From NCBI RefSeq assembly GCF_014201655.1, contig NZ_JACHEX010000003.1, positions 62,001 to 126,000 on the forward strand: 64,000 nt of DNA. The letters are read 5' to 3'. Of this stretch, positions 8,493 to 23,942 are shown in pieces. The position numbers and the translations under genes were made by a program. Origin of the DNA: Thermosipho japonicus (GTDB lineage Bacteria; Thermotogota; Thermotogae; Thermotogales; Fervidobacteriaceae). The notes beneath the pieces are model-generated. The model ran no database searches and was not told where the DNA came from. It saw nothing but the letters and a program-made list of their open reading frames with translations. Position 1 is the stretch's first letter, and each line of letters begins with the position of its first letter.

Positions 8493-9896
8493 ATGAAATT
8501 TGTTGATAGAATTGACGAAATAAAATTTTTAGAAAAAGAGTACAATAAAAAAACTTCTTCCTTTATAGTATTGTATGGCAGAAGAAGAGTGGGAAAGACA
8601 AGACTTATAAAAGAATTCATCAAAAACAAAGATAGTGTATATTTTTTGGCAACCGAGGAAAGTGAAACAGAAAATATTAAAACATTCCAAAATATCCTCT
8701 ATTCAAAATATAAAATCCCACTGCTTGATAATAACAAATTATTAAGCTGGAATGACCTTTTTTATATAATTTCAACCTTAAAATTTGAGAAAAAACTAAT
8801 TATAGTGATAGATGAATTCCAATATTTATTAAAGTCTAATAAAGGCTTTTCATCTATTTTGCAAAAAGCATGGGATGAATATTTGAAAGATAAAAATATA
8901 ATGCTAATTATTTCTGGATCGGCACTTTCTATGATAAAAAGAGAAGTTCTTTCATATTCAAGTCCACTATATGGAAGAAGAACTGGTCAAATAAATCTTA
9001 AGCCAATTAAATTTAAATATTTCAAAGAGTTTTTTGAAAATAAAAATATTGACTTAATAAAACTCTATTCTTTAACTGGGGGAATTCCAAAATATATAGA
9101 AATATTAGAATTAAAAGAGAATATATACGACACTATTAAAGAAAATTTTTTAAACGTTAATTCTTATCTATTCGAAGAGCCCTATCTTTTACTGGAAAAA
9201 GAGTTGAAAGATATAGGATCATATTTTTCAATAATAAAGGTCATCGCGAACGGAAATAATAAACTCTCAAAAATTTCAGCAAGCCTTGGCATAAAGCAAA
9301 CATCTCTAAGCTATTATCTAAACAATCTAATCGAGCTTGATATATTGGAAAGAGAAGTTCCGATTTTAGAAAAAAATCCACAAACAAGTAAAAAAGGAAT
9401 ATATAAAATAAAAGATAATTTTTTAAATTTTTGGTTTAAGTTTATATATCCGTATAAAAGTTATATAGAAATTGGAAACATTGATTTTGTTATGAACATA
9501 ATAAAAAAATCCTTTATTGAAAGACATGTAAGCTTTATATTCGAAGATATCAGTAGAGAAGAATTGATAGATTTAAATTTAAATGATAAATTACCAGTGA
9601 AATTATCAAAAATTGGAAGATGGTGGGACAAAAACTTGGAAATTGATATTGTAGGAGTAGACAAAGAAAATAAACCAATTCTTTTTGGAGAGTGTAAATA
9701 TACAAAAAAACCAGTAGATTTAGATGTGTATTATGTTTTGGTAGAGAAATCAAAAAAGCTTTTAAAAGATAACAATCATAATAATTTGTATTTTGTTTTC
9801 TTTTCGTATAATGGATATACAAAAAATTTTATAGATAAAGCAAAAAAGGAAAAAAATATACTTATTTTTGAAGGAGATTTATCCGAAAATTATTAA
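8493..9896 (+). CDS. P-loop ATPase with PD-(D/E)XK domain (ATPase_2 + DUF234)
   Basis: 467 residues; the ATG at 8493 follows GAGGCGAT. Walker A GRRRVGKT (Lys35), Walker B VIDEFQYL, sensor ISGSALS and YGRRTGQ mark the ATPase_2 family. A middle helix-turn-helix-like segment is followed by a DUF234 C-terminus with LNFWFKFIYPYKSY and LEIDIVG...FGECKY. It is a paralog of 3096-4478, with the same domain order and several shared motifs, and its start shows where that gene probably begins. It is followed by a decayed AbiEii gene on the other strand. Role unknown. Confidence 0.9.
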   Translation: MKFVDRIDEIKFLEKEYNKKTSSFIVLYGRRRVGKTRLIKEFIKNKDSVYFLATEESETENIKTFQNILYSKYKIPLLDNNKLLSWNDLFYIISTLKFEKKLIIVIDEFQYLLKSNKGFSSILQKAWDEYLKDKNIMLIISGSALSMIKREVLSYSSPLYGRRTGQINLKPIKFKYFKEFFENKNIDLIKLYSLTGGIPKYIEILELKENIYDTIKENFLNVNSYLFEEPYLLLEKELKDIGSYFSIIKVIANGNNKLSKISASLGIKQTSLSYYLNNLIELDILEREVPILEKNPQTSKKGIYKIKDNFLNFWFKFIYPYKSYIEIGNIDFVMNIIKKSFIERHVSFIFEDISREELIDLNLNDKLPVKLSKIGRWWDKNLEIDIVGVDKENKPILFGECKYTKKPVDLDVYYVLVEKSKKLLKDNNHNNLYFVFFSYNGYTKNFIDKAKKEKNILIFEGDLSENY

Positions 9897-13476: not shown

Positions 13477-14886
13477 TTATTCATCTTGAATGAAAAAGTC
13501 TCTGGCTTTATTTAATTCATAATAAACTTTTGAGCCTTTACCTTTTCTTTTTAAAATACCTTTATCTACCATATTTTTCAAAATATCTCTTGCTCTTCTT
13601 TCTTTTACATTAAAAAGTTGTTCAACATCAACTCTAGTAATCTTATCATTCTTATAAAGAAAATCCAATATTTTATTTTCATACCCGGCACTATCCGGCA
13701 CTCCCCCGGCACTATCCGGCACTCCCCCGGCACTATCCGGCACTTTGTAAATTATTACTTTAAAAAATGCTCCGTCATCAATAAATTCTGGTTCTTTTAA
13801 ATTTCTTGCCTTACATAATTCCACAATTCTCTTTATTCCCGTTCCCCACTGTTCAACATAACCTATTTCTTTAAAAAATCTTGCAATAACTCTATTTCTA
13901 ATTTCTGAGCGACCTTGCAGAATAAGATCAACACTTAGATTCCCCGGAAGTCCACCCGGAGAAGTTATTTCAACTCTATCATCAAAAATTGCAAGTTTGA
14001 TATCTGATCCTTTAATCGAATAGTCCCTATGAACAACAGCATTCACTAAAGCTTCTCTGATTGCTTCAATTGGAACAATATAACTATCTTCCCTTTTTAA
14101 TCCTTTTATCTCTCCTCTTTTTTCAATGTGTTCCATGGCAAAGTTGAATGCACTTTCAACTTGCTTATAAAGAGGTCCAGAATACTCTTTTTGATCAATA
14201 AATTCTTTTGTGGATAAGCTAATTCCTTTAAATCTTGCACAGCTAATTTTGGCATAATCAAAAAGATTATTTTTACCAATTAACAGTGCCCCACCCACTG
14301 TTAAATAATCTCTTTGCCTTATATTCTTCAATATTTTTAGATTATATAAATCAGACTTTGTCAATTTTTTACCCGTTAAGTTTAGAAAATCTTTTTTTAG
14401 ATTAGAAATTTCCTTTTCATTATAGCTTGCATCATAGATTATATCTTCATCATAAGACATGTTAAATTTTTGCCTCTCAAGCGACCGTATTATCTCTTCA
14501 CTTGCTTTTCTTGTTGTGGCTCCAATTCTAATATATACTTCCTTAGTTTTACTTTTCAAATAATACGGTTTTTGTGGTCCAGGATAAATTTCAACCACAA
14601 GTAGTTTTTTATTCCCAACATTTTCAATATATATTTCAGGTATAATCGTCGGAAAGCATTTATCATGTATCATGTTTGTTATACTATCCATTAAAGAAAA
14701 AATTTCATCTTCCAAAATTCCAACTATCTCTCTTGTTTTATCTTTTATTCCAAAAATTATTTTTCCACCTGAACCATTAGCAAATGCTACAACAGTTTTC
14801 AAAAAAGATTCCTTATTCTTAGCAGAAAGCCTTTCTTTAAATTCTAAATTTTTACCTTCACCTTTTCTAATTTCAGAAAGTATCAT
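13477..14886 (-). CDS. AlbA_2/Schlafen-type putative transcriptional regulator
   Basis: 469 residues; the ATG at 14886 has GAGGTGG upstream. The N-terminus (EGKNLEFKE, FANGSGGKIIFGIKD) is an AlbA_2/Schlafen-AAA-like domain. The middle (REALVNAVVHRDYS, GGLPGNL, EQWGTGI) is the HATPase-like C-terminal domain usual in this 'RecG-like regulator' family. The last 60 residues form a winged helix (RVDVEQLFNVKERRARDIL). A linker of three VPDSAGG repeats is encoded by a 21-base tandem repeat. Such proteins are common next to toxins and mobile elements. The promoter again contains a private palindrome (14925-14967). Confidence 0.85.
   Translation of the reverse strand: MILSEIRKGEGKNLEFKERLSAKNKESFLKTVVAFANGSGGKIIFGIKDKTREIVGILEDEIFSLMDSITNMIHDKCFPTIIPEIYIENVGNKKLLVVEIYPGPQKPYYLKSKTKEVYIRIGATTRKASEEIIRSLERQKFNMSYDEDIIYDASYNEKEISNLKKDFLNLTGKKLTKSDLYNLKILKNIRQRDYLTVGGALLIGKNNLFDYAKISCARFKGISLSTKEFIDQKEYSGPLYKQVESAFNFAMEHIEKRGEIKGLKREDSYIVPIEAIREALVNAVVHRDYSIKGSDIKLAIFDDRVEITSPGGLPGNLSVDLILQGRSEIRNRVIARFFKEIGYVEQWGTGIKRIVELCKARNLKEPEFIDDGAFFKVIIYKVPDSAGGVPDSAGGVPDSAGYENKILDFLYKNDKITRVDVEQLFNVKERRARDILKNMVDKGILKRKGKGSKVYYELNKARDFFIQDE
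13684..13746 (-). repeat. Three 21-bp tandem repeats inside the AlbA_2 gene
   Basis: A CCGGCACT-rich unit repeats at 13684, 13705 and 13726, with the last copy altered at its end. It is far more GC-rich than its surroundings and encodes VPDSAGG three times in a linker. Each unit itself contains CCGGCACT twice. The length keeps the frame open, so copy number could vary without a frameshift. Confidence 0.9.
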
Positions 14887-15541: not shown

Positions 15542-16369
15542 CTAATCTTTAAAATTTTTTAACAATTTTCCTTTTTCTAACTTATAATTTTCAAGCTCCA
15601 CTATTTTTTCCTTATTATTTGTATCCCACAAAAAGAGTAATTTTTCTTCTTTTATTTTCAACGTAGCTCCATTTATCATATTTTCTATATCTACAATTAA
15701 TTCACCCATTTTATCTAAGTTTTCACTATTAAATTCTTCTTCATTAATTTCCAAAAAATTATATTTTTTGAATTTTGAAATTTCTTCACATTCATTTATG
15801 TACTCTAATTTCAAAAGTCCTAAGCCATATTTTATATCCCCACCAACAAATATTTCAAGCCCACTCTTTAAAAAACTTAATAATTTTTGATCTTTAACAT
15901 TTAAAATTCCAACCCAATAAAGTGAAATATTATCATCTAACTCTCTTACAAATTCTTCCCTTGGCCTTGGCAAAATCACATCGATCTCGTGAAGAGATTC
16001 ATCCTTGGCAGATCTAAGTACCGGCGATATTGCCGTTGAAATAATCGTATCAACAAACATTGTTCTAAATTTTTCTTCTGAAAAATTTCCCAAATAAAGT
16101 TTTCCATCCCTTAAACTTAAAAATAAAACATTATTTCCTCTTTTATCAAAAGAAGGCCAAAAACACGAAATTTCTTCAAAAACCTTGTCTATATCTTCAT
16201 AGCTTCCTGTATACAAACCATATATGTTTGTTAAAGCACCCCACATTGTCCATCCAGGAATAAATACTCTTGTCTCATTAATAACCCCATATCTTTTATA
16301 GCCAATATGAATTGGCTGAACTTGTTTAAATACCAATTTATACCAAGTACCTTTACTAGCACTTTCCAT
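15542..16369 (-). CDS. RAMP protein of the Cmr-like effector (Cmr3/Cas5-like)
   Basis: 275 residues from the ATG at 16369, eight bases after GGTGG. The start lies directly after the stop of cmr5 (TAA, one base, ATG). It has a RAMP fold signature: an N-terminal strand with QPIHIGY, then FIPGWTMWGALTNIYG, and a glycine-rich loop VGGDIKYGLGLLKL. The GWTMWGAL segment resembles the Cas5/Cmr3 group, and by elimination the operon still needs a Cmr3, but the similarity is weak and it could be another Cas7-type RAMP. Last gene of the operon. Confidence 0.65.
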   Translation of the reverse strand: MESASKGTWYKLVFKQVQPIHIGYKRYGVINETRVFIPGWTMWGALTNIYGLYTGSYEDIDKVFEEISCFWPSFDKRGNNVLFLSLRDGKLYLGNFSEEKFRTMFVDTIISTAISPVLRSAKDESLHEIDVILPRPREEFVRELDDNISLYWVGILNVKDQKLLSFLKSGLEIFVGGDIKYGLGLLKLEYINECEEISKFKKYNFLEINEEEFNSENLDKMGELIVDIENMINGATLKIKEEKLLFLWDTNNKEKIVELENYKLEKGKLLKNFKD

Positions 16370-16370
16370 A

Positions 16371-16748
16371 TTATTCACCACCATTTTTACCTTTACCCAT
16401 TGCCTTCACATGATATCTTGAATATACAAGAACTTTTTCAAGTACATCCTTGAAAAATAAAAGTTTTTCCAGATCTTCCGACAATTTCTCAAAAAACTTT
16501 TCAGATAAGCCTTTATCATTTTTATCTAAAATTCCAAATGATATTATTAACTCTTTTAAACCATTAAAAATTTTATCCCAAAATTCTTTATTCTTTTCAT
16601 CTTTTAATATGTTTCTTGAAAATATCCAAAGAGCATACACGCCATAATTTGACAAAACTCCAAGCATTTTATTAACATTATTCTCATTTTTTAAATATTT
16701 AACAATTTCAAAACTAGTTTTGTTTATACTTGCTTCAAGATTTTTCAT
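16371..16748 (-). CDS. cmr5: Cmr5-like small subunit
   Basis: 125 residues, nearly all helical, matching the size and composition of Cmr5 (gr11), which stacks along the target RNA in the belly of the Cmr complex. ISKNT-like early helices and the segment MLGVLSNYGVYALWIFSR fit the family. The start overlaps the stop of the preceding cmr4-like gene by 14 bases and is served by GGGGGAG. Assignment rests on size, fold and position. Confidence 0.7.
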   Translation of the reverse strand: MKNLEASINKTSFEIVKYLKNENNVNKMLGVLSNYGVYALWIFSRNILKDEKNKEFWDKIFNGLKELIISFGILDKNDKGLSEKFFEKLSEDLEKLLFFKDVLEKVLVYSRYHVKAMGKGKNGGE

Positions 16749-17835
16749 TGCTATCTCCCCCGTTACTTTTATTAAGTTTTGTTAAAACTTTCATCCTCCC
16801 AAATCCTCTAGTTGTCATGCCTCCTACACCGAGTGTTTCGTAATACTTTTTAGAATCTTCCAACATTTTAAAAACAAATTCTTTTGATGGCAAGTCTTCA
16901 TTTAACTTACTGCGATCAAAAAATCTTATCTCACCATAAAAAATGGTACCTCTTGGAATTGCTTCAGAAGTAAAAAGTGCACCTTCTTTGGCTGCTCCTG
17001 TTATTGGATTAATAGATACCGATGTTCTTACTTCTAAATTAGAGTTTATTATCTGTGAAATAAGATAGTCAGGAACGATTACTATATCACTTAGAGAAAT
17101 GGCTCCTTCCAATAAAGATAGATCTATATTAGTTCCCACTTTTTTGTACGGAAAATATAACCATCCAAGATTGATATGACCTTCCTTATCACCTTCATCA
17201 GTAACTGCATAACAAACAAGTTCGTTAACATTATTTCCCCTGCTTTCATCTAAAATCCCAGCTTCTTTTAACAACTTTTCCGATGTTATCCATTTTGTAC
17301 CTAGCATGGTAAAAACCGGGTAAAATAATATTTTTAAATCCGAAAAGAAAAGTAAGCCTTGCATTGATATATCTTTTTTTGAAAAACCAAATGACTTACA
17401 GACTATACAATGTCCACAATGCCCAGTTTCTTCTTCAATATCATCAATACTCTTATTTGGCAAATCATCCTGACCAGCGCATTTTATTCTTGCAACTTTA
17501 TTTCCTGGATAACTTTCCCAATCCTGTTCACCAAATGGAAAATCATCTTTCCATTTGACGTTTTTTAATTTACTGCTAAAATTTTCTCCATTTACACTTT
17601 TTATATCCTTAAAACTTGGTTGATAGTCTTTTACTCTACTTACTAATTCTAAAGCAGAATAATATCTCCATGTACCTGCTATACTACTTCCCGGGATTTT
17701 TGGTATCTTTGTTATAGGATCTCTAACTATTGTATTATCAACTCTTCCAATGTTATATCCTCCAGTACCTATATAAATAGGATCCATGGCTTGCGTAAAA
17801 ATCCTTTTATTTGTAACAAGCATATGATCTACCAT
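16735..17835 (-). CDS. cmr4: Cmr4-like backbone subunit (Cas7 RNase)
   Basis: 366 residues; the ATG at 17835 follows GGGGGT. The N-terminus DPIYIGTGGYNIGRVDNTIVRD is the Cmr4/Csm3 pattern. Asp33 in RVDN is in the position of the conserved aspartate that cuts target RNA at six-base steps. PGSSIAGTWRYYS is the usual RAMP helix. HCGHCIVCKSFGF is a cysteine cluster like that of Csm3-type proteins and probably binds zinc. GVGGMTTRGFGRM is the C-terminal glycine-rich loop. RNA cleavage therefore seems intact even though the operon's Cas10 looks dead. Confidence 0.85.
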   Translation of the reverse strand: MVDHMLVTNKRIFTQAMDPIYIGTGGYNIGRVDNTIVRDPITKIPKIPGSSIAGTWRYYSALELVSRVKDYQPSFKDIKSVNGENFSSKLKNVKWKDDFPFGEQDWESYPGNKVARIKCAGQDDLPNKSIDDIEEETGHCGHCIVCKSFGFSKKDISMQGLLFFSDLKILFYPVFTMLGTKWITSEKLLKEAGILDESRGNNVNELVCYAVTDEGDKEGHINLGWLYFPYKKVGTNIDLSLLEGAISLSDIVIVPDYLISQIINSNLEVRTSVSINPITGAAKEGALFTSEAIPRGTIFYGEIRFFDRSKLNEDLPSKEFVFKMLEDSKKYYETLGVGGMTTRGFGRMKVLTKLNKSNGGDSNEKS

Positions 17836-17849
17836 TTTTTTACCCCCTT

Positions 17850-20800
17850 TTATACCTTCAAAATCTTATACCAAAATTCAAACATATCGATAAACATATA
17901 TAATTTTTCTTCAAATTTATCTTCTGGCATTTTTTCCAAACTTTCCCAGTTTTCCACTCCGAAAACTTTTGCAAACTCGTCTTTTTTAGTTCCCATTAAC
18001 TCTAAAACATTCACAAAAGAAGAAAGTATGAAGATTTTTAGAGAATATAGATCATCCCAGTCAAGCAATTTTGAATATATAAGTGTAACTAATTTTTGAA
18101 GCTTTGATTCAGAATTAATATCGTTCTTGAAAAACTCATTAAACTTACTAAAATATTGCCAATCTTCTACATCGTATGGTCTATTTTTCTTAATAAATAT
18201 TTTCCTTTTTCCTTTTTCATAATATATTTCATTTCTTCTTGCATTTGAATCTAAAAACTCAAAATCAAATGTATTAGGATAAAACCAAAAAATATCTTTA
18301 TCATTTGAATTTTGTGTTGTATCAATCCATACTTTCGCATCATTGCTAGGATATAGATAAAAAGCATATCCTCTTTGAACAGCATCTGCTCTCTCGAATA
18401 AAGAATAATATTGTTCACTATTATTTTCATCACAGCTGCAGCAACAACCAGCATGCTTTTGTCTACTCTTAAAATCGCCCACAGTAATTTTTTTCTTTAA
18501 ATCCTCCCATTTTTGAAAATCTCTTCTAATTCTTCTTAGCGCTTTTAATCCAACATACAAAGGTTTCTTATAATTTTGAACAACAATGCCAATATGTAAA
18601 GGGAGTTTCCCATAAACCCATTTGAAATACTTATAATATTCATTTTTTACGCTTTCAATCAAATTCGGAACATATTCTGCAGGAATAATAAGCTGCCAAC
18701 TTACTGGTGTTGGAGAAAGTATTGTAAAAAATGGTTCGTACTCTTCTTTATTTGCATCTTTTATATAAAGCTTTTCAACAAAGTGTGTATCATCATCAAT
18801 TTTTTTAATTTCAAATGAATCCTTGTTTCCAACTTTCTCTATCGATGAAATTAAATATACTGTATTTCTTTTAGCCCAGAAAAGAATATCTCCATCAGCA
18901 TACTCGCCATCTGGAATATTTACTCTTTCCCAATACAATCTTTGACATCTACTCTTGGGAAAACCCAATAATTTTGATTTTTTCTTTTCTAAATTCTCAA
19001 AGAAACTTTTTGTTGTTTCCCAAATTCTTCTAAGTCTTGCAGGAGAAGGATTTTTTCTGAGGAGGAATTGTAATATTATTTTGCTCAAAAATTCAATATC
19101 AGTACTTTCATCTAATTTTCTCCAATTTATTTCTCTTTGTTCAAAATTAATCACATCATCCGATAAATTTTTCAATATTAAACTTTCCCATCTAGATCCA
19201 ATAGCTCGTTCCAAAATTAAATTTTTAATTTGTAATATCAAATAGTTAATAGCAAAAATTTTATAAAGATGATCTTTTACATTCTTTTTATTATAATATT
19301 CTTCTATAGGATATTTTTTCTTCTTTTTCGTGTTCGCTATAATTTCGTTAGTCGAACTATCATAAAATGAAAAATGTTCTAGCCATGCTTTTTCTTTGAT
19401 AAGAGTTACAGCAATTTTTCTGTTTTTTTCTTCTACATTATCAAATGATTTATTTTTTTTCAAATTTTCAAAGATGTTCTCATACGGTTTTTTTATTCCT
19501 CCCTCATCAAACAATGAAAGAAATTTTTCTATATTTTTTTCATCAAATTGGTCTAACTGCAATTTTCTTACTTCAGAACTGTTTATCTGATTCTCTATAA
19601 ATATTAATAGTGATTTAATAACATTTTCATATTCAGATTGCCTTTCAACTCTAACAAGTAATGAATTAAAAAAATTACCATTAATCCATTCATTTGGTTC
19701 AAATTTTAAAGTTATAAGTGCTATTCTTCCATTTTTGTCTTGTAGTTCATCCAGCCAAATAGTCTCACCATTTCTATTATCTAACCAGTTTTTCATTCTT
19801 TCCCCTTGCCTTTTTAAGCAGGTATCGCATATTAATTCGTTTAATTTACTTTTCTTTTCAACTGTTCTTACTCCACATATTTGACAAACACCTATTTTCA
19901 AGCTGTTGTTATTGTTATTTTCATTATTTTTATACAACACCTTAGCTTTTAAAAAATTTTCTGGTGCTTTTTCAATTAATTTCCCCAAATTCATTAGCCC
20001 TCTTGATGATTCTGAAAGAAAAATAGCAGGATATATTTCATCATTAAAAACCTCTCTAAATTTTTCAATTATTTTTTCTTCTAGTTTTTTTAGATCTTCT
20101 TTTAATTTATAAAATTCACCTTCTTTTTCACCTTTTAAAAGTTCAGAAACAACAAAATATATTCCCGTTTCATCTCTGTAGATTTCATTCCCAATCGGAC
20201 ATTCTTCTTCTAAAAGTTGTTTTACCTCACTATCTACCTTTTTTATATTTTTTCTATACCATTGTATATTTGATATCTTTAATGCTTTTTCTGAAAGACC
20301 TAATTTATCATATTGAATACCAAGAATACACCATTTTATATTACTAGGCTTATTAATGTACTCATCAACTTTTTCTTTGTATAAGTATAATCCTGATAAA
20401 GCTGCTTTATAAAGAGAAGCCACCATATAAACTTGATCATATAAAGTAACATCGTTAACAGGAAATCTATTATCACTCAATAAATGCGTGTACCATTTTT
20501 TTATTTCTAATAAAATCCAGCTCCGCACTTTTCGCCAATCAGAATTTTCAATACCATTATTATCTTTTAAATAGTTATGTAAATTTTTAAAAAATTGCTT
20601 TCTTTTTTCGTCAAAATTCTTTTCTTCTACACTTTCCACAAAACCTCCAAAAGCATTTGAAATATATAATCTTTTAAGTATTTCTTTAGGAAATCCTTTA
20701 TCTATTCCCGAGTTTAGATTTTCACATCCTCTAAAGAAAATTCCCTCAAAATCTTTATCAAAAACTTTTATCCATTCAACTTCTGATGAATTAGGTAACC

Positions 20801-21038
20801 TAATTTTTTGATTAAAAAAGTTTTTAAATACTTGATCTACTTCGTCAATCTCATCTTTAAATAATTTATCATAATAATCTTCATATCTTCTAATTTTTTG
20901 CTTTGCATTAGGAAAATATTTTATCCAATTATTAAGCCCAATATGAGTTTTTCCAATGTTAAAAAGTAACGCTCCAATTTCAGCCTTTAATATATCTTCT
21001 TTATGGTTCAAAATTTTCTCAATAGCACATGAATCCAT
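17850..21038 (-). CDS. csx11: Csx11-type Cas10 homolog lacking HD and GGDD motifs
   Basis: 1062 residues; ATG at 21038 with GAGGTG, directly after the upstream gene. The size, the central C4 zinc finger (CQICG near residue 385, CDTC about 20 residues later) and the palm-like segment KLPLHIGIVV...KPLYVGLKALRR mark a large Cas10 subunit, best matched to Csx11 of Cmr-like (III-C type) systems. Where active Cas10 has LLHDIGK, this protein has LLFNIGK (Phe26-Asn27). Where the palm should read GGDD before a LAVLPA-like strand, it reads SPTPVSWQLIIPAEYV. Both DNase and cyclic-oligoadenylate synthesis are therefore predicted lost. The protein probably serves as a structural subunit that caps crRNA. 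Confidence 0.8.
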   Translation of the reverse strand: MDSCAIEKILNHKEDILKAEIGALLFNIGKTHIGLNNWIKYFPNAKQKIRRYEDYYDKLFKDEIDEVDQVFKNFFNQKIRLPNSSEVEWIKVFDKDFEGIFFRGCENLNSGIDKGFPKEILKRLYISNAFGGFVESVEEKNFDEKRKQFFKNLHNYLKDNNGIENSDWRKVRSWILLEIKKWYTHLLSDNRFPVNDVTLYDQVYMVASLYKAALSGLYLYKEKVDEYINKPSNIKWCILGIQYDKLGLSEKALKISNIQWYRKNIKKVDSEVKQLLEEECPIGNEIYRDETGIYFVVSELLKGEKEGEFYKLKEDLKKLEEKIIEKFREVFNDEIYPAIFLSESSRGLMNLGKLIEKAPENFLKAKVLYKNNENNNNNSLKIGVCQICGVRTVEKKSKLNELICDTCLKRQGERMKNWLDNRNGETIWLDELQDKNGRIALITLKFEPNEWINGNFFNSLLVRVERQSEYENVIKSLLIFIENQINSSEVRKLQLDQFDEKNIEKFLSLFDEGGIKKPYENIFENLKKNKSFDNVEEKNRKIAVTLIKEKAWLEHFSFYDSSTNEIIANTKKKKKYPIEEYYNKKNVKDHLYKIFAINYLILQIKNLILERAIGSRWESLILKNLSDDVINFEQREINWRKLDESTDIEFLSKIILQFLLRKNPSPARLRRIWETTKSFFENLEKKKSKLLGFPKSRCQRLYWERVNIPDGEYADGDILFWAKRNTVYLISSIEKVGNKDSFEIKKIDDDTHFVEKLYIKDANKEEYEPFFTILSPTPVSWQLIIPAEYVPNLIESVKNEYYKYFKWVYGKLPLHIGIVVQNYKKPLYVGLKALRRIRRDFQKWEDLKKKITVGDFKSRQKHAGCCCSCDENNSEQYYSLFERADAVQRGYAFYLYPSNDAKVWIDTTQNSNDKDIFWFYPNTFDFEFLDSNARRNEIYYEKGKRKIFIKKNRPYDVEDWQYFSKFNEFFKNDINSESKLQKLVTLIYSKLLDWDDLYSLKIFILSSFVNVLELMGTKKDEFAKVFGVENWESLEKMPEDKFEEKLYMFIDMFEFWYKILKV

Positions 21039-21039
21039 A

Positions 21040-22059
21040 TTACTTCACCTCATTACAGCAAATTTCAATTTTTTGTTTTTCTATCGTAAATCTTCCCCAA
21101 CCTAGTTTGCTTTTCGCACCAATTCCTATGTCGGAAATCTTTTTAAAAGATGATTTTATAAATTTCACATCTTTTTCTACTTGATCTTTTAAAACTTCTC
21201 TCTCTAGCCTTATACCATCAAATGGTATATAAACAATTTGAACAATACCTCTTGAATCTTTAGAGACAACTTCAAAAAAAATAGGTCTTTTTCCTTTTCT
21301 TTCTTTTCTGCTGTGAGGATTAATGACTTCCGTTGACAGACTACTTAAAAACGTAGGATAAAATATTGCACGCCCTTTGTGTGTTTTTAAGAAAAAAGGA
21401 AGATTCTTTTTTGACGTTTCTCCATACTTTTCCCATATGTTATTTCTTACCCAATTTTTGAAATTTTCTTTTTTTCTCAAATTGTCTATATCATCTTTTT
21501 TCAATCTCAGACCTAATTCAAATATTAAATACTTAATTATCTCATCCATAGATTTTTCTTTTAATTTATTCTCAAGTAATTCACTCAACATTTTCGTAAA
21601 TTTCGTAAATTCCATAGAACCTGTTCCAAATATTCTTGCAAAAGATTGTATATAATCGATTGCTTTTTCTTCTGTATTTGATGAAAACAATGATTCGTTA
21701 ATTAATATTTTAAAAGCATTAGCAAATGCTCCTTTCCATGCAGAGCCTCTAATCATAGGTATTTTAAAAGCCTTATCCTTTAAACATAAATTTTTCTTAG
21801 TTAAGTTATAATCTTCATCATCCTTTGAAAAATATGGATTAATTAGCTCGATTTCTGCCCAAAAAATAAACGAATAAGGCATTAACCTACTTATATAATT
21901 TTCCAACTCATCCTCTTTTAAAATCCCACTTAGACTTTTTACTTTTTCTATTATATTCAAGGTATTATTACCTATCATTAAACCGTTATATTCAAGCATT
22001 TTATTTTTTTTATCTTTTTCCATATTTATGTATGTTTCAAACTTAAGTGACTTATTCAT
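21040..22059 (-). CDS. RAMP protein of the Cmr-like effector (Cmr6-like)
   Basis: 339 residues from the ATG at 22059; a GTG at 22068 is in frame but badly placed relative to GGAAG. The ATG overlaps the stop of cmr1. It contains the Cas7-type motif IPMIRGSAWKGAFANAF and the C-terminal loop GIGAKSKLGWGRFTI. This is closest to Cmr6 among the standard subunits, and its place between cmr1 and cas10 allows that, but the N-terminal 60 residues are not typical. It probably forms the 3' end of the effector filament. Confidence 0.65.
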   Translation of the reverse strand: MNKSLKFETYINMEKDKKNKMLEYNGLMIGNNTLNIIEKVKSLSGILKEDELENYISRLMPYSFIFWAEIELINPYFSKDDEDYNLTKKNLCLKDKAFKIPMIRGSAWKGAFANAFKILINESLFSSNTEEKAIDYIQSFARIFGTGSMEFTKFTKMLSELLENKLKEKSMDEIIKYLIFELGLRLKKDDIDNLRKKENFKNWVRNNIWEKYGETSKKNLPFFLKTHKGRAIFYPTFLSSLSTEVINPHSRKERKGKRPIFFEVVSKDSRGIVQIVYIPFDGIRLEREVLKDQVEKDVKFIKSSFKKISDIGIGAKSKLGWGRFTIEKQKIEICCNEVK

Positions 22060-23008
22060 TCTTTTCACTTCCTTTCAAAAAATTCACAATTGAGATAAAA
22101 CCAACTTTTAACCCCCCCTCATATTTATCTTTTTGAATTTGATACGTAACTAAAGGAAATATTTTACTTCCCTCTTTCTTACTTCCAAACAAATACTTAC
22201 TAATTTTATATCCATTTCGTTTATTAGATTTAATCTCTTTAAGTTTCTTTATTAATTCACTATATCCTTTGCCGTCAATATTTTCCAAAAATAAAACGTT
22301 AATCTTTTTATTTTTAGATAATAAAGTTTCAAAATCTTCTTCTTCGCCCTCTTCAACTTTAACAATGTCACTTTTTTCACTATTTTCTGAAAAAAATTTA
22401 TTCTCATCTTCAAATAATTTAAATTTAAACTCATTTTCTCTCCATTGCCATTTGTTCAATACCTTTCCGTCCATTTTTATATTCACAACTTGTAACCTTC
22501 CATATCCTAATGACCATTTTCCTCCCCAAAAACCATATAATTCCATAAAGTACAACAAGGGATAAAATATTGGATTAATTATCTTTTCTTCTATTTCAAA
22601 AGCAACTTCAAACGTTCCCCAAAAATAAGGGTTTCTATAACTATTATCTAAATTTAAATAGTTACCAAAACAATATTTCCCGACTGGTTTTATTTTTTTT
22701 ATCCTAATCCATCCTTTCCAATCATTACAACCAAAAATTTTGGAAGATAAGCTCAGTTTAAATTCAGAAAAAATTTTATTCAAAGATTCAAAATCAATCC
22801 CCTCTTTTAAAATAAAGTTTTGAAAATTTTTTGAATCAAAATTCCCCAAATCATTGATTTGTAAACCTGAAAAATAACAAACAACATCCAACCAAAACCT
22901 TAAAGAGCCAATTAAGCTTGAAGGTCTTATTTCATTAGTTATTCCTTTATAGTTTCCTGTCCACAAAGGACTGAGAGTTTTAAATTTAATCTTTAGCTCT
23001 TTATTCAT
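22052..23008 (-). CDS. cmr1: Cmr1-like subunit
   Basis: 318 residues; ATG at 23008 after GGGGGAC. The opening KIKFKTLSPLWTGNYKGI...EIRPSSLIGSLRFWLDVV is the Cmr1 pattern, and WGGKWSLGYGRLQV is its glycine-rich loop. Cmr1 sits at the head of the Cmr effector and is needed for complete assembly on target RNA. It is the first gene of the operon, with the CRISPR array ending about 95 bases upstream in the same direction. All six genes are spaced tightly or overlap, so they form a single transcript. Confidence 0.85.
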   Translation of the reverse strand: MNKELKIKFKTLSPLWTGNYKGITNEIRPSSLIGSLRFWLDVVCYFSGLQINDLGNFDSKNFQNFILKEGIDFESLNKIFSEFKLSLSSKIFGCNDWKGWIRIKKIKPVGKYCFGNYLNLDNSYRNPYFWGTFEVAFEIEEKIINPIFYPLLYFMELYGFWGGKWSLGYGRLQVVNIKMDGKVLNKWQWRENEFKFKLFEDENKFFSENSEKSDIVKVEEGEEEDFETLLSKNKKINVLFLENIDGKGYSELIKKLKEIKSNKRNGYKISKYLFGSKKEGSKIFPLVTYQIQKDKYEGGLKVGFISIVNFLKGSEKNE

Positions 23009-23102: not shown

Positions 23103-23672
23103 ATTTCAATTCTTATAAGGTAAGGTACAAACGATCCTTCGCTTCGCGTTCACTGCGCGAAGGAGATAAAAGTTTCAATTCCTACAAGGTAAGGTACAAA
23201 CAAGTAAAACAACTAAAGGTTAGAAAAAATGGAAGACTGTTTTAATTCCTACAAGGTAAGGTACAAACGTTCTATTACTGTTCCTTTTTGTGCCTCAGGA
23301 TATATATAGTTTCAATTCCTACAAGGTAAGGTACAAACAAAAATTAGATTTTTTAGAACAAAATGGAATAACATTGTTTCAATTCCTACAAGGTAAGGTA
23401 CAAACGATAAATATGGAATAATTGTCAATACGTTTGACAAGTTTCAATTCCTACAAGGTAAGGTACAAACTACAAGCCGAACTAGCTGAAATAAATTTAC
23501 AGTCGCAAGTTTCAATTCCTACAAGGTAAGGTACAAACAATAATTGATAAGCTTGGGGAAAAAGCTAATTGGAGGTTTCAATTCCTACAAGGTAAGGTAC
23601 AAACGCAAGATATTCATCAGACAGACAAAGTGATACTTCTATGTTTCAATTCCTACAAGGTAAGGTACAAAC
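23103..23672 (-). CRISPR. CRISPR array, 9 repeats and 8 spacers
   Basis: A 30-base repeat, reading GTTTCAATTCC...GGTACAAAC on the plus strand, occurs at 23103, 23172, 23239, 23309, 23376, 23441, 23509, 23575 and 23643. Spacers are 35-40 bases. On the minus strand the repeat ends in ATTGAAAC, the usual 5' handle of type III crRNAs, so transcription is leftward. The copy at 23103 has three mismatches and the one at 23239 has one. Degeneracy at the leftmost copy fits the trailer end. A minus-strand promoter lies just right of the array. No cas1, cas2 or cas6 is in the window, so adaptation and processing must come from elsewhere. Confidence 0.97.
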
Positions 23673-23688
23673 CATAGATTACATTGTA

Positions 23689-23717
23689 ATTATATTACAT
23701 TTTATTACTTTGTGCAA
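23689..23717 (-). promoter_or_regulatory. Leader promoter of the CRISPR array
   Basis: On the minus strand TTGCAC (23717-23712) and TATAAT (23694-23689) are separated by exactly 17 bases. Transcription would start near 23682, about ten bases before the first repeat. This agrees with the orientation deduced from the ATTGAAAC handle. Confidence 0.65.
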
Positions 23718-23795
23718 CCTTGTTGAAAAAATCATAACAAAAAATAAACAATATTAACATGAAATATTTTGAAGTTACATAGTTTTTTTATTTTT

Positions 23796-23841
23796 TTCAG
23801 TCGATCTCCAGGACTTTTTACACTACTGCACATCGACTGAA
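23796..23841. other. Perfect 10-bp inverted repeat upstream of the leader
   Basis: TTCAGTCGAT (23796-23805) and ATCGACTGAA (23832-23841) pair perfectly around 26 bases that are more GC-rich than their surroundings (CTCCAGGAC and CACTACTGCAC). No clean run of T follows, so a terminator is not obvious. It may be a protein-binding site, a structured RNA or the end of a lost element. Confidence 0.5.
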
Positions 23842-23942
23842 TTTAACTATAAAAATTTTGTTTCTTCTTTTTTATCTTTTTTCTAAAATTTATCCATTAA
23901 AACTTGCCCCTGGTTAAAGCAAAGTTAAATTTGGATATAAGA

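Follow-up and report, generated by a model that had tools for sequence, protein, structure and literature searches.

Csx11 of a type III-C CRISPR locus in Thermosipho japonicus: a Cas10 homolog with both catalytic sites replaced, beside an array with the repeat and leader of a type I-B system

The window, by which we mean the whole 64,000-nucleotide stretch analysed, holds a tight minus-strand operon of cmr genes, identified by PADLOC and NCBIfam, in which csx11 is the third gene. A CRISPR array lies immediately upstream of the operon in the same orientation, and no cas6, cas1 or cas2 is found within the locus. The features are as follows.

23673..23850, minus strand: leader of the array, identical at 169 of 185 aligned positions to the leader of a type I-B array on contig C6 of the same genome
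23103..23672, minus strand: CRISPR array with 8 spacers between 9 copies of the 30-nt repeat GTTTGTACCTTACCTTGTAGGAATTGAAAC, whose 3' handle ATTGAAAC is of I-B type
22052..23008, minus strand: cmr1 (PADLOC Cmr1, E 2.5e-89)
21040..22068, minus strand: cmr6 (PADLOC Cmr6, E 2.3e-77)
17850..21038, minus strand: csx11, type III-C Cas10, 1062 aa from an ATG start, HD and cyclase sites both replaced
20943..20969, minus strand: codons of Csx11 residues 24-32 (LLFNIGKTH), at the position of HD motif 1, with F26/N27 for H/D
18690..18710, minus strand: codons of Csx11 residues 777-783 (TPVSWQL), where the GGDD loop would be expected, TPVS corresponding to GGDD
16735..17835, minus strand: cmr4 (Cas7), 366 aa, above the TIGR02580 cut-off, cleavage Asp33 kept
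16371..16748, minus strand: cmr5 (Cas11 small subunit; PADLOC Cmr5, CAS-III-C, E 3.5e-29)
15542..16384, minus strand: cmr3 (Cas5; PADLOC Cmr3, E 1.1e-65)

The protein encoded at 17850-21038 is Csx11, the Cas10 of type III-C: it scores 519 bits against TIGR02682, for which the curated family cut-off is 248.95, and PADLOC assigns it to Cas10c / CAS-III-C (E 1.6e-126), bearing out its placement in the III-C/Csx11 group by the initial annotation, a first reading of this DNA. More general searches recovered little, with no convincing domain in Pfam and no PDB relative by phmmer, and a profile of 60 Csx11 proteins was required to reach the solved Cmr2 structures. The structure prediction that the initial annotation had proposed gave a model of high confidence (AlphaFold, pLDDT 91, pTM 0.91). 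Foldseek places this model in the Cas10/Csm1 fold (best E 9.7e-07), and a VIA alignment with Csm1/Cas10 (Z 19.6, rmsd 4.2, 575 residues aligned) extends over residues 13/14-1062. The predicted fold is thus that of a full-length Cas10, with the HD, palm1, Zn, palm2 and helical parts of the superfamily all present in the model. The Zn cysteines C385, C388, C404 and C407 are invariant in 11 relatives and nearly invariant in the 60 proteins. Compared with the same-genus protein at locus L009, residues ~451-660 (window ~19059-19688) form an insert with 30% identity inside it and ~90% in either flank; by eye the L009 insert looks like that of L006, as if recombination had swapped the segment.

Both catalytic centres of the window protein prove to be replaced when 68 full-length Csx11 proteins, drawn from genomes of many phyla, are aligned, a check that the initial annotation had suggested. 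The LLFNIGK that had been noted in place of LLHDIGK occupies residues 24-30, and the columns of F26 and N27 hold H and D in all 31 HD-positive relatives. The HH of motif 2 is missing, and motif 3 reads E106-x-x-N109, where 23-24 of the 31 HD-positive relatives have D-x-x-D. If the first helix is aligned without gaps, the superposition of model residue 13/14 on Csm1 residue 1/2, taken from the printed ranges, would set F26/N27 against the Csm1 HD pair. At the second site, solved Cmr2 structures align with the 60-protein Csx11 profile (E about 0.001) from directly past the known GGDD position, and TPVS (777-780) therefore falls in register with that motif, in agreement with the earlier claim that SPTPVS stands in place of the GGDD loop. 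At these columns a GGDD-like motif is missing from all 68 full-length proteins. An intact HD or GGDD at another place in the chain would have refuted the initial annotation; a scan of all 1062 residues found no HD, HH, GGD or GDD.

The locus thus combines a Csx11-family large subunit above the curated cut-off, an inactivated cyclase (TPVS for GGDD) and Cmr-like effector genes (cmr1, cmr6, cmr4, cmr5 and cmr3) in a single operon, as in type III-C. The motifs of an active HD nuclease, sometimes assumed for III-C though not defining, are absent (HD to FN, no HH, D to E). This leaves III-C membership standing, since half of III-C systems are without a recognizable HD domain (Hoikkala and colleagues, PMC11229360), and the window protein belongs to that half. 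The same survey finds cyclase sites absent in III-C, which is also listed as cyclase-inactivated by Makarova and colleagues (PMC12669027) and in PMC8730458; according to a review, variants of III-C or III-D sometimes lack the cyclase and HD domains or carry them in inactivated form (PMC7694759). The published III-C counts (PMC11229360) therefore already imply the double loss.

Our alignment gives the same picture. The HD dipeptide is kept in 31 of the 68 proteins and absent in 37, while all three HD motifs are kept in 24, so that HD loss is not exceptional in III-C and the earlier understanding that its members usually retain the HD site fails against both these counts and the literature. Loss of both sites is common within the family. 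In a tree from which the columns of the HD domain were left out, the HD label changes at least six times, and HD has therefore been lost more than once. The window protein falls in a 24-member HD-less clade (SH-aLRT 100) spanning about ten phyla: Thermotogota, Aquificota, Bacillota, Cloacimonadota, Campylobacterota, Fidelibacterota, Aminicenantes, WOR-3, Gracilibacteria and Paceibacterota, as labelled in the record titles, several members being metagenome-assembled genomes. Separate HD-less groups, independent of this clade, occur at L007, L021, L095, L099, L003 and relatives, reading LHM or LHL, with H for D in the third motif. Three Thermotogota genomes (G063, G064 and G019; loci L003/L017, L004/L029 and L007/L019) have two csx11 genes each, one HD-intact and one HD-less, which suggests a division of labour.

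The clade conserves its replacement residues. E106, N109 and S110 are invariant (24/24), T777, S780, W781 and Q782 are each found in 22 of the 24 members, and the motif PTP[IV]SWQ is near-universal; within the clade the replaced sites are not drifting. Relative to L010 (68% identical), dN/dS is ~0.19 over the whole of csx11 and ~0.23 within what was the HD domain, and the gene is thus under purifying selection.

The gene order cmr1-cmr6-csx11-cmr4-cmr5-cmr3 recurs in almost every clade locus with enough flanking sequence. Asp33 of Cmr4, the cleavage aspartate that the initial annotation had described as retained, aligns with Asp in all 32 Cmr4 ORFs of the window and L031-L063 set (one of which comes from a second cmr cluster of L058), and likewise in 36 of 36 Cmr4 proteins outside that set. 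We sought a clade-specific accessory nuclease near the clade operons and found none that recurs; only adaptation, cas6 or type I genes do.

Targeted searches of the window's own genome connect the array with a type I-B system. Contig C6 carries cas6-cas8b-cas7-cas5-cas3-cas4-cas1-cas2 of type I-B (PADLOC), and directly beside them lies a 19-repeat array with the window's repeat. The alignment of the two leaders scores 153, against 31 for the best shuffled alignment. A third array, on contig C1, has a repeat that differs from the window's by one base. The genome also contains a complete type III-B system on contig C8 (L124:70-18087), whose Cmr2 has LHDP and GGDD and which has its own cas6, cas1 and cas2 and a different repeat. 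Given the shared repeat and leader, and the separate repeat and cas6 of the III-B system, the III-C module most likely draws on I-B-type crRNAs and the III-B module on its own. A type III complex is able to use type I-F crRNAs in Marinomonas III-B (PMC5576922); there the repeats of the two systems differ, whereas here the III-C operon adjoins an array whose own repeats and leader are of I-B type.

Both the window's genome and G079 pair csx11 with a I-B system of this Cas8b, while G084 and G085, relatives with an HD-less Csx11, have no match to the window genome's Cas8b, and the pairing is therefore not universal. In G079 the I-B cas3 (G079:C8:10972-11870) appears split in two frames, whether really or by a draft error. 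Across Thermotogota, whose genomes are related, cas3 is not significantly commoner where csx11 is present (12/15 versus 52/88; P = 0.16, Fisher's exact test), and there is no significant association between csx11 and cyclase-type Cas10. Searches for protospacers gave chance-level matches for the window and C6 arrays against phage records, none for all spacers against the fetched loci, and none for three trimmed spacers against viral contigs. The leader-distal spacer of the window array (23133-23171) contains the inverted repeat CTTCGCG...CGCGAAG, and a spacer of the C1 array contains AGCACTC...GAGTGCT; their targets could possibly lie in terminators or hairpins.

Beside the III-B genes on contig C8 are a CARF-HEPN Csx1 and a SAVED-Lon (CalpL-like) protease, the latter followed by ORFs of 254 and 224 aa. 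The earlier statement that no Csm6/Csx1 is present accordingly holds for the III-C locus but not for the genome, in which Csx1 accompanies the intact-looking III-B system. Csx11 could not feed cyclic oligoadenylate to either this Csx1 or the SAVED-Lon protein.

Type III-B and the window system have the same subunit set and Cas10 fold, but the window's Csx11 is without the GGDD cyclase of Cmr2. Type III-E (gRAMP/Cas7-11) resembles the outcome expected here, guided RNA cutting without Cas10 catalysis, yet it is one fused protein with no Cas10, whereas the window encodes separate Cmr subunits and a full-length pseudoenzyme Cas10. Types III-G and III-H likewise have an inactivated Cas10 cyclase and no cyclic-oligoadenylate effectors; they keep HD, have lost the Cas7 aspartate and are predicted DNA cutters (PMC12669027). 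The window system is the reverse, having lost HD and kept Asp33 of Cmr4.

Together, the lost motifs, the retained fold, the conserved Cmr4 aspartate and the shared repeat and leader favour RNA slicing with shared crRNAs. Csx11 is probably a double-pseudoenzyme Cas10 in a complete III-C effector that slices RNA through Cmr4 alone and is supplied with crRNAs by the I-B system. The three same-repeat arrays would all get their spacers from Cas1/2/4 of the I-B system and be processed by its Cas6; the III-C complex would load the I-B-type crRNAs, and Cmr4 alone would cut matching transcripts. Csx11 would form the structural head of the complex, capping the 5' end of the crRNA and sensing the target. 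The expected outcome would be PAM-independent RNA silencing alongside DNA attack by I-B, with neither collateral DNase nor a cyclic-oligoadenylate alarm. As far as sequence can indicate, the complex most likely acts purely by cutting target RNA, as the initial annotation had proposed, with its alternative of an RNA-binding platform the less probable of the two.

In Pyrococcus furiosus III-B, an HD/Palm double mutant of Cmr2 gave no anti-plasmid immunity despite intact Cmr4 (PMC7192623), and slicing alone may therefore be too weak to protect. No other argument weighs as heavily against the idea that slicing by itself protects. In the Csx11 lineage slicing may nevertheless be sufficient under the conditions in which it acts, as it might be when directed at early transcripts or at PAM escapers; otherwise the complex would have a regulatory function or a partner. 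A regulatory complex would bind RNA, perhaps cutting it slowly, and mainly silence or sequester transcripts; it might dampen the alarm of the III-B system in the same genome, or control genes of the host or of prophages, instead of itself clearing invaders. We regard this as unlikely, though the Pyrococcus result speaks for it, as do the disappearance of both destructive outputs of Csx11 and the availability for damping of an intact-looking III-B system with Csx1 and SAVED-Lon; the cleavage aspartate in 32 of 32 Cmr4 proteins argues that cutting is in use, and the array has eight ordinary-looking spacers and an acquisition-type leader. A partner triggered in trans, with Csx11 signalling target binding by shape instead of catalysis, seems less likely again. 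The type III-E protein Cas7-11, which triggers a protease, offers a model, and the invariant E106/N109/S110 and near-invariant PTP[IV]SWQ look like a kept surface or pocket, but conservation of these residues may be purely structural, and beside the clade operons nothing recurs except adaptation, cas6 or type I genes.

Residual activity, in which the HD pocket would still be a nuclease through other ligands or the palm would still bind or process nucleotides, we consider very improbable. The HD and palm folds are kept in the model, and two residues, H32 and E106, are located within or next to the old motifs; however, all three motif positions are changed, H32 is itself missing in 10 of the 24 clade members, and the protein has nine histidines among 1062 residues, with no HD or HH pair. 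Least credible of all is that the III-C module is a decaying remnant heading for loss. The same-genus csx11 at L009 (genome G079) does have no in-frame ATG, GTG or TTG ahead of the first conserved residues, whether really or by a draft error, but dN/dS of ~0.2, an intact six-gene operon and a deep clade of fixed gene order across about ten phyla run against decay, which we rejected on dN/dS and synteny.

Slicing by Cmr4 with I-B-type crRNAs also admits a bolder formulation, that a distinct and ancient III-C branch replaced both sites with conserved non-catalytic motifs and protects by a slicing-only route that is closed to the Pyrococcus III-B double mutants; this is a possibility somewhat short of probable. 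Neither the description of this clade, nor its replacement motifs, nor the sharing of a I-B repeat and leader was found in the literature searched, which also yielded no experimental study of Csx11, and the HD-less branch thus appears under-described. The novelty lies in the repeat and most of the leader that the window array has in common with the type I-B array of this genome, which argues concretely for type I and type III systems working as partners from a single store of spacers. Explanations of type III immunity usually rest on the DNase of Cas10 or on signalling by cyclic oligoadenylate. A lineage of Cas10 that is without either, yet has stayed intact across about ten phyla, brings directly within reach of experiment the question whether guided RNA cutting by a complex of several subunits can suffice for defence, and it offers engineered RNA knock-down a natural point of comparison that is free of signalling.

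Two further genes of the window are recorded here. Beside the III-C operon, 13477-14886 encodes a Schlafen AlbA_2 / HATPase_c_4 protein with tandem PDSAGGV repeats near its C-terminus, and 8493-9896 encodes an ATPase with DUF234 that PADLOC matches to the candidate defence family PDC-S27 (E 5e-53).
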